Shown one piece after another: positions 2,448 to 25,991 of a DNA stretch of 33,696 nucleotides (within the stretch, counting starts at the first letter, position 1; every line of letters starts with the position of its first letter). The DNA comes from a virus. The stretch lies in the IMG/VR virus record IMGVR_UViG_3300045740_000206, positions 1 through 33,696 of that record; one strand, given 5' to 3'. The position numbers and the translations under genes are program-made. The notes under the pieces were generated by a model. The model made no database searches. It worked only from the letters and a program-made list of their open reading frames with translations, and was not told the origin of the DNA.

Positions 2448-3620
2448 TTAACTCCTTACTAGCTTGAATGTAGCTGTTATCATAAGACTATTCTGTCCTA
2501 CTGTTAGCTCTCTTTGGGTAAGACTTTTATAGATAGCTAATACTTGCTGTTCTTCTAACTTTCTTCCTTCTTCTGTAATACTATCATAATAGAAGGCCCA
2601 TTTCAAAGAGTCATGTTGATTATGGATAAGATAACTTGAAGGAAACTCCTTTTGTAATAGTATACAGCTTTCATTAATATATGAAGCTACAGTACCCTGT
2701 ATAGTATGGTTAAAGAGTTCTTTAGCTGCATCTTTAGATTTTATCCAGGCATGTCTTTTACCTCCATAAAGAGTTCTCGATTCTTTATCTCTTCTATATT
2801 TCTCCATCAGTACAGCTTTAGCTTTCTGTATTTCTATATTACTTTCTACAAATCTTACAGCTAATTCCTCATAATTAGGAGGCTCTAGTTCTCCTGTTAA
2901 AGGATTAAGTATTTTATAGCTTTGTATATTAGGTATAGAGTAGACAAAGCCTGGGCTATACTTTAAGTTTTGATAGATACGGAAAGGAAGTCTGGTTTTA
3001 ACTCCATCTCTTACTATTTCTACATAAAAGTATTGTCCTCCATAGGTAAAGTTTTTACTCATAGTTCTTCTAGAGTCATCTTTACCTTGCCATTTAACTG
3101 AAGCTCTCCATTCAGTATCTTCTACAGAAGTATGAGGATTTAATAATACCTGAGGATAAGGTAAATTAAAAAGCTCGCAAGTAACAGGAGTATGAATATC
3201 AATACCACTTTTTAATGCCTCTATTCTTTCTTTCCAGTTAAGTATTAAAGCATAAATTCTATGCTCTACAGCATCAAGATCATGTTCTATCCAGAAAGTA
3301 TTTTCTTCAGGGAGTATACAATCTCGTATACTCCAACATTCTGCAGTCTTTTCATGATGATACTTAGGGCAGTCAGGGTTAATACATTTCTTAGGAAAAT
3401 TACTTAAAGGAGGATTAAGGTAACTCCACCTCCCGCTAGCTTGAGTAGGGAGTATAGTAGGGTATATTCTCTCTCTATTTTGAAGTTTAGGTAAAATACT
3501 CTTTTGTAGATTACTTATTTCAGAGTAATGTAAACGTAAGTAAGCGAGTTCTTGTTGAGTAGTATTTAAGGTTCCTTTATCTATAGCTTTTTTAAGTTCA
3601 TTACGGCTTATAGAAGGCAT
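2448..3620 (-). CDS. Family A DNA polymerase, polymerase half (thumb end, palm, fingers)
   Basis: 390 aa carrying the polymerase domain only. Residues 61-75 match the TGRLSS..NLQNIP block (ASGRWSY...PLSNFP). Motif A is D114-L-D-A-V-E119-H-R121. Motif B (O helix) has R185-x3-K189, with Tyr193 four residues after the Lys, the position where Tyr marks low ddNTP discrimination in T7 polymerase. Motif C is QHDS (335-338) instead of HDE, so the first catalytic Asp is present but the following Glu is Ser. Between the TGR block and motif A is a Cys/His-rich insert (C79, C84, H88, H89, C95, C101), perhaps a zinc knuckle. The protein lacks the exonuclease domain and first thumb part, which are encoded by the gene just upstream (3638-5251). 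Start ATG 3620 lies 17 bp after that gene's stop with its own AAGG site, so this is a split enzyme rather than a simple frameshift. Confidence 0.9.
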   Translation of the reverse strand: MPSISRNELKKAIDKGTLNTTQQELAYLRLHYSEISNLQKSILPKLQNRERIYPTILPTQASGRWSYLNPPLSNFPKKCINPDCPKYHHEKTAECWSIRDCILPEENTFWIEHDLDAVEHRIYALILNWKERIEALKSGIDIHTPVTCELFNLPYPQVLLNPHTSVEDTEWRASVKWQGKDDSRRTMSKNFTYGGQYFYVEIVRDGVKTRLPFRIYQNLKYSPGFVYSIPNIQSYKILNPLTGELEPPNYEELAVRFVESNIEIQKAKAVLMEKYRRDKESRTLYGGKRHAWIKSKDAAKELFNHTIQGTVASYINESCILLQKEFPSSYLIHNQHDSLKWAFYYDSITEEGRKLEEQQVLAIYKSLTQRELTVGQNSLMITATFKLVRS

Positions 3621-3637
3621 AATATTTAATACCTTAA

Positions 3638-5251
3638 TTAAGAGCCTAAAGTTAGTTCTAACTTCGCTATAATACTTTCTATTTTCTTTTTACTAATTCC
3701 TTTTTTAGGTTTATCAAGTTTAGATACAGCTTTATTTCTAACTCGTTTAACGGTTTTATTAATACTTCTAGTATCTTCAGTAGCATCTGTAGTATAAATA
3801 TCTTCATATACTCCTTTACTTACTTGCTGTGAACTAGCAATGTTAAAGTCAGGGTTAGCTGTTAATTCTCTAGCTCTGCTTTCTATTTCTTGAAGTTCTT
3901 GATTTAATAACTGTGAAATTAAAGCTATTCTCTCTTGATTAAGTTTAACTCCTCTATTTTGAAATCTATTAATAATATAAAGTAAAGGCTGTCTTCTCTT
4001 TTTATATTCAGTATATGAGATAGGATCAACCTTAAACTCTTGTATAAGAGCTTTCCATACATGATTTAAGGTAGTATCAGCGTCTAAACCTGCATAAAGA
4101 TATTGTTGATATTTATCTTTAGCTGTTCTCAGGTGTTTATGACGGTTATATAAACCATATTTACTTAACATATAATCTAGAGAATTAGGCTCTCCTGTCC
4201 ACAAAGTAGCATGAGCTAACATACAGTCCTCCATATTTATTTTATGAAGGTCTGTATCTTTTATAAGAGGTAAGAAATGAGGGAGGTCTACTAAACCATT
4301 CTGAGTTATGAGATTTAACTTAGAAGGTAAATGAGATAGAACCCTACTATAGCTTGAATCCACAACATAAATAGAGCTATAGATGTCAGCAAGACTCCAC
4401 ATAATAAGTTTGTTATTATCGTTAGGATCGTATTCAGTATCAAACCCGATAGTATTTGGGATATAAGAAGGTATTTCATTTACCTTTATCTCCGGTAAAG
4501 GTTTAGGCCATGTACCTCTAACTAAATTACCAAATCTTACAAAGTCTAGTAAGGTAGCATGATAGTACTTTTCTGATTTATAGAGAGAAGCTAAATGTAA
4601 AGTAGGAAAGATATTCAGTTCAGCGTTACTTACTTCATAATATTCTTTCATACCGTAGAAAGTTCCCAGTAAATCCGTACCTATTACTGACCCTCTCCAT
4701 TCAGTTATACCTTCTTTTTTATACTTAATATTACCTTTCTCATCTAGCTCATCTGTTTCTATTTTTATCTCACCTGTAAGGTGATAGAGTGAAATAGATC
4801 CCATAGCTAAAATATACTTAGTAGTAGAAGGTATCTTTAAGTAGTGAGTAGTGCAGTATTCTATAGCTTCTTTTAGCATCTTATTTGTAATACCGTTAAC
4901 AGCTTTCGTAGAGCCTATAGCAGGTAACTCATTAACGTTATTAGGTCTACATTTAATAATGTTAGCTCTAGAAACAGAGCTATAAGGAAGTTTAGTTAAA
5001 GGCCAGAACTCATTTTTAAGAGTTAGTCCTGTAGCTCCTATTAAAGGTTGAGGTAAGACTTCTTTAATAACTGGTTCTCTTTTGTAGTTATATTCATAAC
5101 GGAGTATTTCTTTTCCTAACTCTTCATTTTCGCCTGGACTCTGCGCTAAGATAAGTATTTTACTACCTTCTACAATAGAATCAGGTACTATGTATTTAGA
5201 TTTATTATAGAAGGGACAGTTACAGCATTTAGAAGGTTTAAGGATGGGCAT
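3638..5251 (-). CDS. UDG-like domain fused to family A polymerase 3'-5' exonuclease and half thumb
   Basis: 537 aa. Residues 1-245 resemble family 4/5 uracil-DNA glycosylases: Cys cluster C9, C10, C12; LILAQSPGENEE (33-44) in place of the GEAPGxxED motif; IGATGLTLKN (71-80); NIIKCRPNN (97-105); and a C-terminal LHLASLY at the HP-motif position. Residues 265-410 are a DEDDy exonuclease: D271/E273 in GFDTE, D322 in NGLVDLPHF, a DCMLAHATLW segment and Y386-x3-D390 in YAGLDAD. The end (FNIASSQQ, 469-476) is the start of the polymerase thumb, after which the protein stops with a Lys-rich tail. The missing palm and fingers are in the next gene (2448-3620). Ribosome site GAAGGAG precedes ATG 5251. 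Likely role: proofreading subunit of a two-piece replicase with a uracil-sensing or -excising module. Glycosylase activity is uncertain because the motifs are diverged. Confidence 0.85.
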   Translation of the reverse strand: MPILKPSKCCNCPFYNKSKYIVPDSIVEGSKILILAQSPGENEELGKEILRYEYNYKREPVIKEVLPQPLIGATGLTLKNEFWPLTKLPYSSVSRANIIKCRPNNVNELPAIGSTKAVNGITNKMLKEAIEYCTTHYLKIPSTTKYILAMGSISLYHLTGEIKIETDELDEKGNIKYKKEGITEWRGSVIGTDLLGTFYGMKEYYEVSNAELNIFPTLHLASLYKSEKYYHATLLDFVRFGNLVRGTWPKPLPEIKVNEIPSYIPNTIGFDTEYDPNDNNKLIMWSLADIYSSIYVVDSSYSRVLSHLPSKLNLITQNGLVDLPHFLPLIKDTDLHKINMEDCMLAHATLWTGEPNSLDYMLSKYGLYNRHKHLRTAKDKYQQYLYAGLDADTTLNHVWKALIQEFKVDPISYTEYKKRRQPLLYIINRFQNRGVKLNQERIALISQLLNQELQEIESRARELTANPDFNIASSQQVSKGVYEDIYTTDATEDTRSINKTVKRVRNKAVSKLDKPKKGISKKKIESIIAKLELTLGS

Positions 5252-5281
5252 AGCTCCTTCTCCTCTTATAGTTGTAAAATA

Positions 5282-5547
5282 GACTCTTCTAACTCACATC
5301 TTGATTTCCACAAGATTTACTTAGCACCCTCTACTTCTTATATCTAAAGTAGAGACTAAGGACAAGGCATTACGTTTAGAATAGGAAATACTTTTAAGAA
5401 ATTAAGCAGCTGAAATACTTAACTTCTTTAAGTAAAAAGTATTAGACTTACTTCTTAGGTTTGCCAATAAGAAGTGTCCTCTATTCTATCTAATTCTCTA
5501 CCAGGAGTCTTGCAGAGAATTATAGTATTCCTAGAGTTAGAAGAGTC
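5282..5547 (-). ncRNA. Candidate structured RNA: multi-helix element closed by a 14-bp stem
   Basis: A 338-bp gap without a gene lies between 5590 and 5251. A perfect 14-bp inverted repeat (GACTCTTCTAACTC at 5282-5295, its complement at 5534-5547) closes a domain in which most of the rest pairs locally: 5298-5303/5311-5316; 5320-5324/5356-5360 enclosing 5329-5336/5347-5354; 5377-5384/5481-5488 enclosing 5387-5395/5435-5443 (with inner hairpin 5417-5422/5428-5433) and 5451-5457/5468-5474; and 5491-5499/5514-5522. All listed pairs are perfect Watson-Crick, and the helices nest or sit side by side without crossing. It would be read as the leader of the UDG-exonuclease mRNA or as a separate RNA. 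No group I core, RNase P or tmRNA landmarks were found. Strand is inferred from the surrounding operon. Confidence 0.55.
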
Positions 5548-5559
5548 AAAGGTTTATAT

Positions 5560-5579
5560 TAAGACTTATTAAAGTCTTA
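5560..5579 (-). other. Hairpin TAAGACTT-ATTA-AAGTCTTA
   Basis: Perfect 8-bp stem with a 4-nt loop directly upstream (in minus-strand sense) of the structured element and just after the stop of the 203-aa gene. It has no U-tract, so it looks like an RNA-processing or separating hairpin rather than a terminator. Confidence 0.5.
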
Positions 5580-5588
5580 TCTTAGCCT

Positions 5589-5617
5589 ATTATAGCCTTT
5601 GTAACCTTCCTAAGTAA
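5589..5617 (-). promoter_or_regulatory. Possible internal promoter before the structured element
   Basis: On the minus strand a perfect TATAAT (5589-5594) overlaps the stop codon of the 203-aa gene. The hexamer 17 bp upstream is TTACTT, a poor -35. Transcription would start near 5582, so the RNA would begin right at the hairpin and the structured element. Weak evidence. Confidence 0.3.
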
Positions 5618-6201
5618 TTAGCATTTCCAGCTTTACTTAACGTAATATACATAGAGTAGACTCCTTCCTCTAACATATTCAGAATATCTTTAACATTTTT
5701 GACTTTCTTTTCTTCCTTACTAAAATAGAAGGTAGTCAATCCTGCATAAGTTTTACTTAGCATATCTGCTTCATCACTTACTGCACCTGTTTCTTTATTA
5801 GAAAAAGTACGATAATCAGGACTAAAGCCAAAAGAGAATCTTCCTTTTTTTAGTGTTTGTTGATTGACTACAATACCTGACACATTAATAATACATCTAC
5901 CTTTGTTATACTTAATATCTCCTGTAGCTTTGTACATAACTTGCATCATATCTGAAGGAGCAATATCTTTCTCGCTATAGTTTCTACGGATACCAGGTGT
6001 TTTATCCCATACATAAACACCTGAAGGTAAGTAGAGTTCTGACTCAAGTTTAGCTAACTCTTCTTGATCTATAGCTAAAGAAAGAACTTCATCATCTTCA
6101 ATATCTTGATGAGAGTTAGTACTTGAGATAGACTCTTCTACTACCGTTTCATTCATTGCAGCAAAGACATCATCAACAGCAACTACAGTTTCTTCTGCCA
6201 T
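5590..6201 (-). CDS. 203-aa protein, possible ssDNA-binding or replication accessory
   Basis: ATG start with AAAAGGATTTAAGTA upstream. Residues 1-50 are acidic and low in complexity. Residues 60-200 look beta-rich, with a GRCIINVSGIVVNQQTLKKG stretch and FSFGFSPDYR that would suit an OB-type or other beta-barrel fold. It lies in the replication operon between the Sak4-like/coiled-coil genes and the polymerase, where phages often keep an ssDNA-binding protein. No signature residue set is visible, so SSB is only an inference from position and shape. Confidence 0.7.
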   Translation of the reverse strand: MAEETVVAVDDVFAAMNETVVEESISSTNSHQDIEDDEVLSLAIDQEELAKLESELYLPSGVYVWDKTPGIRRNYSEKDIAPSDMMQVMYKATGDIKYNKGRCIINVSGIVVNQQTLKKGRFSFGFSPDYRTFSNKETGAVSDEADMLSKTYAGLTTFYFSKEEKKVKNVKDILNMLEEGVYSMYITLSKAGNANYLGRLQRL

Positions 6202-6264
6202 TACTTAAATCCTTTTAACGTAAATATACAGAGAGTTAGATATATCTAAACTAAAGCTATCTTT

Positions 6265-6696
6265 TTACAGCTCACTTGAAATAGTAACAGTCTCCTTTAC
6301 TTCTAGCTTTATAAAGCTCGGTACTCCTTTCCCTTTAAGATTCCTTATATAACTCTCAAAACCTTTCTTATCCAGAGTTAAAAAGAGAGAATGTGTTTTA
6401 GCCCATTCTAAAGCATCCTCCTCTTTATAGTGAAGTATAGTCAGGTCTCTTTCCTTAAGAAAGTTATAGATTTCTTTAGTTGATTTATCCCCTTGTTGAT
6501 AGAGTAGTAAGGCTTCTTCTTTAAGACTAGCTTCAGCTTCACAAAGGAAATTCTCTTCTTGAGCTAACCTATCTATTAAATTTCTTTCTTTTAGCTTAAA
6601 AGAGTCTAAAGCTATTTGGTAGTCAGTTTTAAGGATTCTAACTCTAGCTCTCAAACTCCTTACTTCATCTAGCTTTTGGTCTAAACTGTAGTTCAT
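6265..6696 (-). CDS. 143-aa coiled-coil protein (Gp157/Gam-like?)
   Basis: The start is placed at ATG 6696, which overlaps the upstream stop as ATGA and has AAAAGGG upstream. An ATG at 6723 in frame would overlap 31 bp and lacks a ribosome site. The first half is a long helix/coiled coil (DEVRSLRARVRILKTDYQ..., KERNLIDRLAQEE...). The C-terminal half has a helix and a short beta end (FIKLEVKETVTIS). This layout resembles phage Gp157- or Gam-type recombination accessory proteins, and the gene sits directly after a Sak4-like ATPase, but the similarity is only general. Confidence 0.65.
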   Translation of the reverse strand: MNYSLDQKLDEVRSLRARVRILKTDYQIALDSFKLKERNLIDRLAQEENFLCEAEASLKEEALLLYQQGDKSTKEIYNFLKERDLTILHYKEEDALEWAKTHSLFLTLDKKGFESYIRNLKGKGVPSFIKLEVKETVTISSEL

Positions 6697-8044: not shown

Positions 8045-8062
8045 TTTGTTTTAACGAACATG

Positions 8063-8091
8063 ATTATACAGAATGGCAGAAATTATGTCAA
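8063..8091 (-). promoter_or_regulatory. Consensus sigma70 promoter of the replication operon
   Basis: On the minus strand TTGACA (8086-8091), a 17-bp spacer, TATAAT (8063-8068): a perfect match to the bacterial housekeeping promoter. It points into the 7937-to-1 gene series. Confidence 0.85.
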
Positions 8092-8111
8092 GGAAAAAAT
8101 AACAGATAGAG

Positions 8112-8135
8112 AACTTCTTTATTTTTGAAGAAGTT
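8112..8135. other. Hairpin between terminator and promoter
   Basis: AACTTCTT (8112-8119) and AAGAAGTT (8128-8135) form an 8-bp stem with a T-rich loop. It sits between the terminator of the upstream single gene and the operon promoter. It may help insulate the two units. Confidence 0.4.
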
Positions 8136-8150
8136 AGCTAAGAGAATAAA

Positions 8151-8181
8151 AAAGGACTAGATTTTTTAGGTCTAGTCCTTT
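8151..8181 (-). terminator. Intrinsic terminator of the 146-aa gene
   Basis: The 11-bp stem AAAGGACTAGA (8151-8161)/TCTAGTCCTTT (8171-8181) is followed on the minus strand by a run of T (TTTTTTATT). It ends the single-gene unit at 8246-8686. The plus-strand side has only a short T tract. Confidence 0.75.
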
Positions 8182-8183
8182 TA

Positions 8184-8252
8184 AGAGTAAATAGAAAGTA
8201 GAATAGGTCATGACGTAGCGAAACATGCCTATTCTAGATTACTATTTACTCT
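8184..8252 (-). other. 69-nt palindrome spanning the stop codon of the 146-aa gene
   Basis: The 11-bp outer arms AGAGTAAATAG (8184-8194)/CTATTTACTCT (8242-8252) include the TAA stop. The inner 8-bp arms AGAATAGG (8200-8207)/CCTATTCT (8228-8235) continue with CATG/CATG. Just downstream is the terminator. A strong 3' structure like this can protect an abundant mRNA. Confidence 0.6.
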
Positions 8253-8686
8253 GTCACAGCTTCATCACACAGCGCTTCAATAAGATTCGCTTTATCATTC
8301 GCAAAGCTATTGTAATTAACGTTATAGAGAGCACAAGCCTTTTGAAGCTGCTCATCTGTACGAGAGTTAAAGAAAGCCCGTAGTCCCTCACGTGGATCAA
8401 TTTTACGTGGACTACGAGGACCTCTTTCAAAAGAAAGATTTTCTGTTAAAGCTGCAATATGATTATGATACTCATCAATACGCATCAACATCCGAGCACG
8501 AGATTTCCAGCCAAACCTTTTAGTTTCAAAAGCTGCTTGCAGTTCAGTAGCTAGTTCTGTAGGCACATACTTACTATAATCAGCGTAGTTAAAGCTATCT
8601 ACATCAGAGCCTTCCTCACTTTCACTGACTTCAGTAACAGTAGGAGTATTAACAGGAAACAGATTCTCTTCAACTACAGCAGCCAT
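8246..8686 (-). CDS. 146-aa protein with SAP/HeH-like C-terminus, own transcription unit
   Basis: ATG 8686 with GAAAGGA upstream is preferred over an in-frame TTG at 8701. Residues 1-45 are acidic and disordered-looking; the middle is helical and basic (RFGWKSRARMLMRIDEY). The end (TDEQLQKACALYNVNYNSFANDKANLIEAL) fits the helix-extended-loop-helix pattern of SAP/HeH DNA-binding motifs: leucine-rich helix, loop, then K..LIEAL. It has its own near-consensus promoter, terminator and stable 3' palindrome, and uses more CGT/GCC-type codons than neighbouring operon genes, which fits an abundant DNA-binding protein or regulator. Function is inferred. Confidence 0.7.
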   Translation of the reverse strand: MAAVVEENLFPVNTPTVTEVSESEEGSDVDSFNYADYSKYVPTELATELQAAFETKRFGWKSRARMLMRIDEYHNHIAALTENLSFERGPRSPRKIDPREGLRAFFNSRTDEQLQKACALYNVNYNSFANDKANLIEALCDEAVTE

Positions 8687-8720
8687 ACTTTTTCCTTTCA
8701 ATTAAGGGAAGTAAAGTGTA

Positions 8721-9337: not shown

Positions 9338-9430
9338 AAAGAAGGTAATTAACTAATTAAGTAAAATAGTTACTTAGCTAATTTTGGTTAATTCACTAGT
9401 TTAGTAAAATAGTTAAGTACTAGGATATTA
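9338..9430. repeat. AT-rich stretch with repeated AGTAAAATAGTTA; possible origin or regulator array
   Basis: The 13-mer AGTAAAATAGTTA occurs at 9360-9372 and 9403-9415, 43 bp apart (about four helical turns), within a very AT-rich stretch also carrying TTAATTAA-like words and CTAGT/ACTAG ends. Two iteron-like repeats next to an AT-rich zone in a gene-free region could mark a replication origin or protein-binding site. No DnaA-box cluster is apparent. Confidence 0.35.
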
Positions 9431-9439
9431 AAAAAGTCT

Positions 9440-9736: not shown

Positions 9737-9765
9737 TTGTTTTATCTTTGTGGATTTGCGATACT
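9737..9765 (+). promoter_or_regulatory. Weak candidate promoter of the DUF932 module
   Basis: TTGTTT (9737-9742), 17-bp spacer, GATACT (9760-9765). It stands after the small terminator and before the long hairpin leader. An alternative is TATAAT at 9896-9901, which has no good -35. Confidence 0.3.
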
Positions 9766-9813
9766 CTTATCAGTTCATTGACATAGTGACTCTACAGTCC
9801 TCAAGGCATCCTC

Positions 9814-9921
9814 TGATAGGGATATGGGCTACGTCACAGTATCGACTCACTCCCTTGACTAGACTTGTGCCATAGTCGGGTATAGTGAGCTACTGTATAA
9901 TCCGTGACACCTCCCCTATCA
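9814..9921 (+). other. 108-nt long nested hairpin in the leader of the DUF932 module
   Basis: Successive nested complementary pairs: TGATAGGG (9814-9821)/CCCTATCA (9914-9921), GTCAC/GTGAC, AGTA/TACT, CTCACT/AGTGAG, CCC/GGG and GACTA/TAGTC, with small internal loops. The whole piece folds into one imperfect rod. It lies upstream of the first gene (10015) and may be a regulatory leader, a small RNA or a DNA cruciform site. Confidence 0.5.
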
Positions 9922-9959
9922 ATAGAGCATGTATAGCACGTAGAGTCCATACTCCTATC

Positions 9960-9978
9960 GTACAGTGCGGTACTGTAC
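9960..9978. promoter_or_regulatory. Perfect dyad GTACAGT-GCGGT-ACTGTAC
   Basis: 7-bp perfect arms with a 5-bp spacer, 36 bp before the ATG of the first module gene. It could be an operator for a dimeric repressor or a leader hairpin. ACTGTA also occurs at 9892-9897 beside a TATAAT. Confidence 0.45.
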
Positions 9979-10014
9979 TTGATAACGCAAAAGCAGAAAT
10001 AGGAGTGTAGATTT

Positions 10015-10212
10015 ATGTTTAGCAGGGAAGAACTCGCGATCCTCGAAAATCTCCTAAAACAAACACGCAATATTTTAGAAGGAAAGCATGGAGCTAAGCT
10101 ACAGAAGGATGTAGGTACCTTTTATAGTAAAAGAGAGCGGGAAGCTATTACGGATAATGGTCTGCTCCATAAAATCCTCTACCTTGAAGACGTCAGCACG
10201 AAAGGAGTGTAG
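10015..10212 (+). CDS. 65-aa helical hypothetical protein
   Basis: ATG 10015 with AGGAG upstream; first gene of the DUF932 module. The helical, charged sequence (MFSREELAILENLLKQTRN..., YSKREREAITDNGLLHKIL) resembles small phage early proteins without an assigned role. It ends 3 bp before the next ATG, whose AAAGGAG site lies within this gene's end. Codons such as CTC, ATC and CGG are commoner here than in the AT-rich arms. Confidence 0.7.
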   Translation: MFSREELAILENLLKQTRNILEGKHGAKLQKDVGTFYSKREREAITDNGLLHKILYLEDVSTKGV

Positions 10213-25828: not shown

Positions 25829-25867
25829 GAAAGTTAGCTCTTGTATAGCTTTCTAAGTATTATAGAT

Positions 25868-25922
25868 TTAGTGAGTATATTCTTTATAATAATAGCTTTG
25901 TTATTAGGGGTATACTCACTAA
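25868..25922 (+). other. Large hairpin after the capsid gene
   Basis: TTAGTGAGTATA (25868-25879)/TATACTCACTAA (25911-25922), 12-bp perfect stem, with an inner TAATAA/TTATTA. It ends at an AAGGAG ribosome site. No T-run, so likely processing or partial termination that separates capsid from tail expression. Confidence 0.6.
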
Positions 25923-25934
25923 GGAGTTAAGTAG

Positions 25935-25991
25935 ATGTTAGAAAGTATATATAAAGCTCTAAATTATTTAAGGTTTTATTATGGTAAGTGA
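25935..25991 (+). CDS. 18-aa leader peptide coupled to the 206-aa gene
   Basis: ATG 25935 with AAGGAG directly after the large hairpin. The frame ends at TGA 25991, overlapping the start of the next gene by 11 bp. The next gene has only a weak AAGG site, so the mini-ORF may feed ribosomes to it. Could be incidental. Confidence 0.4.
   Translation: MLESIYKALNYLRFYYGK

Follow-up and report, generated by a model that had tools for sequence, protein, structure and literature searches.

An orphan structured RNA element in the replication operon of a phage, predicted from folding of a single genome

The contig IMGVR_UViG_3300045740_000206 of an uncultured phage in IMG/VR (33,696 nt, analysed over its full length and hereafter referred to as the window) carries a 266-nt element at positions 5282-5547 that is predicted to form a large RNA structure. 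The element is located in a 338-nt intergenic gap (5252-5589) flanked by co-directional minus-strand replication genes, in a region where most gaps are shorter than 70 nt, and the gap contains no open reading frame (ORF) longer than 32 aa. The downstream gene encodes a 537-aa protein that joins a uracil-DNA glycosylase (UDG)-like N-terminus to the 3'-5' exonuclease part of a family-A DNA polymerase (hereafter UDG-exonuclease), with profile matches to the uracil-DNA glycosylase 4zbx and to Klenow chains. The polymerase (palm) part is encoded in an ORF of its own; the family-A polymerase is, thus, split over two ORFs in the window (2448-5251, minus strand); the Manatee Spring phage MW202742 encodes it as a single 827-aa ORF. 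The upstream gene belongs to a conserved family, fam0, that is shared with the relatives described below and has no match in PHROG or Pfam. The structure of its 203-aa product was modelled with low confidence and had no match among PDB folds, and its candidate assignment as an SSB was not confirmed.

Folded as minus-strand RNA, the element reaches -91.6 kcal/mol, compared with -57.6 +/- 4.6 kcal/mol for shuffled sequences (z -7.4), and the plus strand reaches -73.7 kcal/mol (z -4.7), with 0 of 200 shuffles being as stable in either case. An additional 400 shuffles yielded z-scores of -7.0 and -4.6 for the minus and plus strands, respectively, so that in total none of 600 shuffles equaled the minus strand in stability. 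The minus-strand fold comprises 98 pairs, against a maximum of 95 in 400 shuffles, and its ensemble diversity is 13.3, compared with a mean of 66 and a minimum of 17.9 among the shuffles. In a scan of 260-nt stretches across the window, the element was outscored only by 8061-8320, a terminator region. The first-pass annotation had described a large structured RNA-like element and proposed that both strands be folded against shuffled controls; the description is supported by these statistics, in which the element is more stable than all shuffles, as well as by the strand asymmetry and the direction of the operon. A neutral spacer that folds through chance or drift could be envisaged in an AT-rich genome, and strong folding is also seen in several other gaps of these phages. 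However, a z-score of about -7, the failure of any of 600 shuffles to reach this stability and the perfect 14-bp closing helix render this explanation extremely improbable.

The predicted domain is closed by helix P1, the perfect 14-bp inverted repeat (5282-5295 / 5534-5547) that had been noticed at first pass and that we confirmed at these positions. P1 represents the only perfect 14-mer pair in the window with arms 100-400 nt apart, and any such pair occurred in only one of 20 dinucleotide shuffles of the whole window. The minus-strand model includes 14 helices, 12 of them with at least three pairs, and contains P2 and a weak P7 in addition to the helices listed in Table 1; nearly all have a mean pair probability above 0.87, and most are above 0.9. 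The 98 pairs consist of 91 Watson-Crick and 7 G-U pairs, compared with only 2 G-U pairs on the plus strand. Because the minus strand folds better, contains more G-U pairs and is the coding strand of the flanking replication genes, it is supported as the RNA-sense strand of the element. We regard the element as a real orphan RNA structure with strong statistical support and with a function that we infer.

Table 1. Coordinates of the element, its predicted parts, neighboring features and a hairpin found in relatives
Feature	Coordinates	Strand	Basis
Structured RNA domain, 266 nt	5282..5547	-	Minimum free energy -91.6 kcal/mol, z about -7, 98 pairs
P1 closing helix, 5' arm GACUCUUCUAACUC	5534..5547	-	Perfectly complements 5282-5295; pair probability 1.00
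P1 closing helix, 3' arm GAGUUAGAAGAGUC	5282..5295	-	Fold model
P3 hairpin of 11 bp with apical segment AAGACUCCUG	5491..5522	-	Pair probability 0.98
P4-P5-P6 three-way arm	5377..5488	-	Pair probabilities 0.87-0.98
P4, 8 bp	5481-5488/5377-5384	-	Fold model
P5 hairpin	5444-5479	-	Fold model
P6 hairpin, 9+13 bp, 6-nt 5' asymmetric loop	5387-5443	-	Fold model
P8 hairpin, 6+9 bp, 3-nt 3' bulge	5320..5360	-	Pair probabilities 0.94-0.99
P9 hairpin, 6 bp	5298..5316	-	Pair probability 0.98
Separate 8-bp hairpin between upstream gene and element, UAAGACUU UAAU AAGUCUUA, without U-run	5560..5579	-	Fold
Putative weak promoter-like pair, TTGACT - 19 nt - TATAAT, overlapping P1/P3	5519..5549	-	Read from sequence
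Ribosome-binding site region of UDG-exonuclease gene, AGAGGAGAAGGAG, beyond the element	5254..5266	-	Sequence
Upstream gene, 203 aa, fam0, family-conserved	5590..6201	-	Shared in relatives; no PHROG/Pfam match
Downstream gene, 537 aa, UDG-like N-terminus and 3'-5' exonuclease part of family-A polymerase	3638..5251	-	PHROG 17
Family-A DNA polymerase, polymerase (palm) part, own ORF	2448..3620	-	Pfam DNA_pol_A, PHROG 17
Homologous hairpin AAAGGTAGA...TCTACCTTT, 8-nt 3' asymmetric loop, U-rich tail	L027 9293-9385	-	
Same hairpin	L028 8341-8423	-	
Same hairpin	L026 1960-2050	+	

The Rfam 15 models, which included ROOL, GOLLD, group I and group II introns, RNase P, 6S, SRP and tmRNA, had no match in the whole window at the gathering threshold, and at E<=5 the sole matches of the element region, RAGATH-32 at 11.9 bits and MPMV_package at 11.2 bits, were chance matches far under the cut-offs. 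ARAGORN found no tRNA or tmRNA genes in the window. These searches agree with the inspection at first pass, which had seen no landmarks of group I introns, RNase P or tmRNA, and also answer its proposal to compare the element with known families using covariance models. An intron in a flanking gene is excluded, both flanking ORFs being complete and collinear with their homologues. A retron msr-msd RNA likewise finds no support: Pfam detected no reverse transcriptase domain among the 20 window ORFs scanned, including the flanking genes, on a contig that is incomplete. Nor is the element an intrinsic terminator: there are no terminator-like sites (a GC-rich hairpin followed by a U-run) in 5100-6400, and the element should therefore be co-transcribed with the operon.

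Through the polymerase, the capsid protein and the UDG-exonuclease, we reached a small group of related phages comprising the IMG/VR contigs G001, G002, G004, G007 and G009, the more distant L050 and the Manatee Spring podophages, such as MW202742. The IMG/VR relatives share the order fam0 gene, UDG-exonuclease gene and polymerase ORFs, with G009 ending within the UDG-exonuclease gene. The gap corresponding to that of the element ranges from 57 to 338 nt, and its contents differ in each lineage (six distinct relatives). In G001, it encodes a 60-aa ORF and tRNA-Arg(TCT). G002, with a sequence identical in G009, has a 77-aa ORF and the hairpin AGAGCTAAG...CTTAGCTCT (AGCTAAG...CTTAGCT), and G007 has a 54-aa ORF and the hairpin AAAAGGGTAAG...CTTACCCTTTT (GGGTAAG...CTTACCC), both hairpins being short, perfect and located just before the UDG-exonuclease gene. 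The gap in G004 contains a hairpin with a 20-bp stem (-30.6 kcal/mol; 0/300 shuffles) and a 68-aa ORF, the gap in L050 contains a 12-bp hairpin (4/300 shuffles), and that of MW202742 contains a foldable stretch of about 140 nt (z -2.2). As far as these folds can tell, the gap in the relatives usually carries structure on the coding strand. The element shares this slot with the tRNA gene of G001 and the small cargo ORFs of G001, G002, G004 and G007, but differs from such cargo in containing neither a tRNA or tmRNA nor a comparable ORF.

The element has no recognizable homologue in any of the sequences searched. In blastn searches with the element region, phage records yielded no homologue, and plasmids yielded a single 25-nt chance match. 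A covariance model built from the single sequence recovered, apart from the element itself, fragments of 28-65 nt at best, with no more than 12.7 bits, in the sequences of the relatives. The exact P3 motif had one match in IMG/VR, in L053, which is confined to 26 nt of P3 and is due to chance, and a blastn match in L027 (7044-7208; 59%, E 0.007) falls within fam0 coding sequence and was attributed to composition. Protein-based searches of IMG/VR and GTDB genomes identified no relative whose polymerase identity exceeds 67%, and prokaryote genomes yielded no relative. The element is absent from all relatives recovered; it is lineage-specific and single-copy. With no second member among relatives, phages or plasmids for a covariation comparison, a new class cannot be shown, and the element falls outside the known Rfam families.

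The perfect terminal inverted repeats and the restriction to this lineage could also suggest a recently inserted palindromic element akin to a miniature inverted-repeat transposable element, with the 14-bp repeats as its termini. However, the element lacks a target-site duplication, a second copy was found neither in the window nor in the relatives, and the internal arms form helices of their own that would be unnecessary for transposition. On these grounds, we rejected a mobile element, which we consider very unlikely.

With DNA parameters, folding was significant for either strand (z -7.0 and -6.0), such that folding of the element as single-stranded DNA also appears possible in principle. 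With replication genes adjoining, a DNA structure, either a cruciform or a single-strand fold, might serve in replication initiation, primosome loading or packaging, and a role of DNA structure in replication had indeed been proposed at first pass. We do not favor this idea and consider it quite improbable because the mRNA-sense strand folds better and the syntenic relatives lack a counterpart, having the tRNA, ORFs or short hairpins instead. Moreover, better origin candidates, iteron-like arrays and structured intergenic stretches, are present elsewhere. Close to where the window changes from one of its divergent gene sets to the other, a structured, GC-richer stretch (9760-10015, minus strand; z -4.1) and 24-27-nt direct repeats (9346-9437) represent a possible origin or regulatory region. 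In G001, a palindromic TTTACGTAAA iteron array with a 16-nt period (L025 9396-9610) is possibly an origin, an operator or a partition site.

The element might, alternatively, be a discrete non-coding RNA, that is, a P1-closed domain that is either cut out of the operon RNA or transcribed from inside the operon, and that acts in trans as phage tRNAs or the large ornate phage RNAs do. This is the main competitor of the cis-acting role considered below. The domain is autonomous and closed, with one dominant fold (diversity 13.3), and G001 has its tRNA-Arg gene in exactly the same gap, which indicates that stable RNA genes are tolerated at this site. Furthermore, phages harbor ROOL and GOLLD RNAs, often close to tRNAs (PMC12286853), and the element resembles these ornate RNAs of phages and prophages in its complex phage-encoded fold and in the tRNA that occupies the same slot in a relative. 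However, many GOLLD RNAs exceed 800 nt, whereas the element spans 266 nt, is known here from sequence alone, is not located in a tRNA island and has neither a match in Rfam nor homologues. A promoter-like TTGACT-19-TATAAT pair is present at the 5' end. The first-pass annotation correctly placed the element in the intergenic space before the UDG-exonuclease gene, but the TATAAT it reported just upstream lies inside the element (5519-5524, minus strand), with TTGACT at a 19-nt spacing as its sole companion, and hits in the promoter scan were close to the shuffled expectation (7 vs 4.1). The pair represents weak evidence of an independent promoter because a start inside P3 would forfeit the 5' arm of P1. 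Considering also that the element has no terminator of its own and no second copy among the relatives, phage records and plasmids, we regard a discrete trans-acting RNA as somewhat unlikely. A more specific proposal is that the element is the first known member of a new class of medium-sized (about 270 nt) phage structured RNAs and would, once excised as a stable RNA closed by P1, act in trans from a replication-operon slot that holds a tRNA in a relative; this is less likely again.

The explanation we favor, with a probability of about 0.48, is that the element is a lineage-specific, cis-acting structured domain of the mRNA ahead of the UDG-exonuclease and polymerase genes, probably involved in processing, stability or expression control. 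A cis role is favored because the coding strand folds better, there is no terminator, the gaps of the relatives are usually structured, long mRNA-sense hairpins also follow the fam4 gene in these phages and there are precedents among phages. The analysis shows the folding statistics, strand and location of the element and its lack of homologues in the sequences searched. We infer that the element is transcribed within the minus-strand replication operon mRNA, where the compact, P1-closed multi-helix block would protect the upstream message against 3' decay, provide a processing site or do both, which would allow different expression of the operon's two halves; it could also be bound by a protein as an operator of the replicase genes. 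The phage precedents include the RNase III processing signals of T7 mRNAs (PMC4858673) and the leader operators of T4 genes 32 and 43 (PMC3014915). Like the T7 signals (R1.1 and others), the element provides mRNA-sense hairpins in a phage operon gap, and its P6 arm (9+13 bp with a 6-nt asymmetric loop) could match such a signal in size, its length being compatible with the stem of about two turns in RNase III signals. In contrast, a T7 signal is a single hairpin of about 60 nt, whereas the element is a 266-nt, P1-closed, multi-branched domain in which cleavage is hypothetical. Similar to the autogenous translational operators of T4/RB69 genes 32 and 43, the latter encoding the replicase, it is a structured leader before a replication gene, but it is many times larger and stops 30 nt before the start codon. 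The earlier suggestion of a cis-regulatory leader of the replicase stands as the best remaining reading, given a location in the mRNA that leaves 30 nt up to the UDG-exonuclease start and given the structures in the gaps of relatives; the overlap with the ribosome-binding site, a feature of the T4 gene 43-type operator, is absent.

Several observations weigh against a cis-acting role. With its 266 nt and 14 helices, the element far exceeds the known phage processing hairpins and replicase operators. It lies outside the ribosome-binding site, which is predicted to be partly paired whether or not the element is present, and the predicted accessibility of the site shows no clear dependence on the element. 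In addition, several gaps of relatives fold just 1.8-2.5 standard deviations better than shuffles, the tRNA-bearing gap of G001 folds 1.7 standard deviations worse, and the structures in these gaps have neither sequence nor architecture in common with the element. Separately, CUCCU in the P3 loop complements the AGGAG within the ribosome-binding site downstream; a long-range contact is possible, although a 5-mer match could be due to chance.

An intergenic scan of the relatives revealed further large mRNA-sense structures, all located just after the fam4 gene, and a strong hairpin follows this gene in 5 of 5 genomes. In the window, the stretch after the fam4 gene (8246-8701) contains an 11+9 bp hairpin followed by a 12-bp hairpin with a T-run, that is, a terminator (8130-8275, minus strand; z -6.6). 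G007 and G002 carry a hairpin of 16-18 plus 14 bp with an 8-nt 3' asymmetric loop. G004 carries an array of four long hairpins (L028 8200-8650, minus strand; z -10.4), the second and third of which resemble diverged copies of one hairpin. The post-fam4 hairpin is homologous in G002, G004 and G007, and 7 of its 30 pairs are changed on both sides with pairing kept, which provides modest evidence of compensatory change across only three sequences. Another long hairpin, directly 3' of the major capsid gene in the window (25829-25980, plus strand; z -4.5), is probably a stabilizer or a terminator. Because the post-fam4 and gap structures recur on the mRNA sense, this phage group thus keeps structured RNA punctuation, variable in sequence and size, at the boundaries of the replication operon, and the element in the window is the most elaborate closed domain seen in the group.

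One member alone does not yet define a class, but this case indicates that folding screens of single genomes can flag elements missed by homology-based RNA discovery. If real in vivo, the element would stand out as an RNA domain of unusual complexity between replication genes of a little-known phage group, and the slot it occupies, which holds a tRNA, small ORFs or unrelated structures depending on the member, would be a place to seek phage RNA regulators or processing signals.
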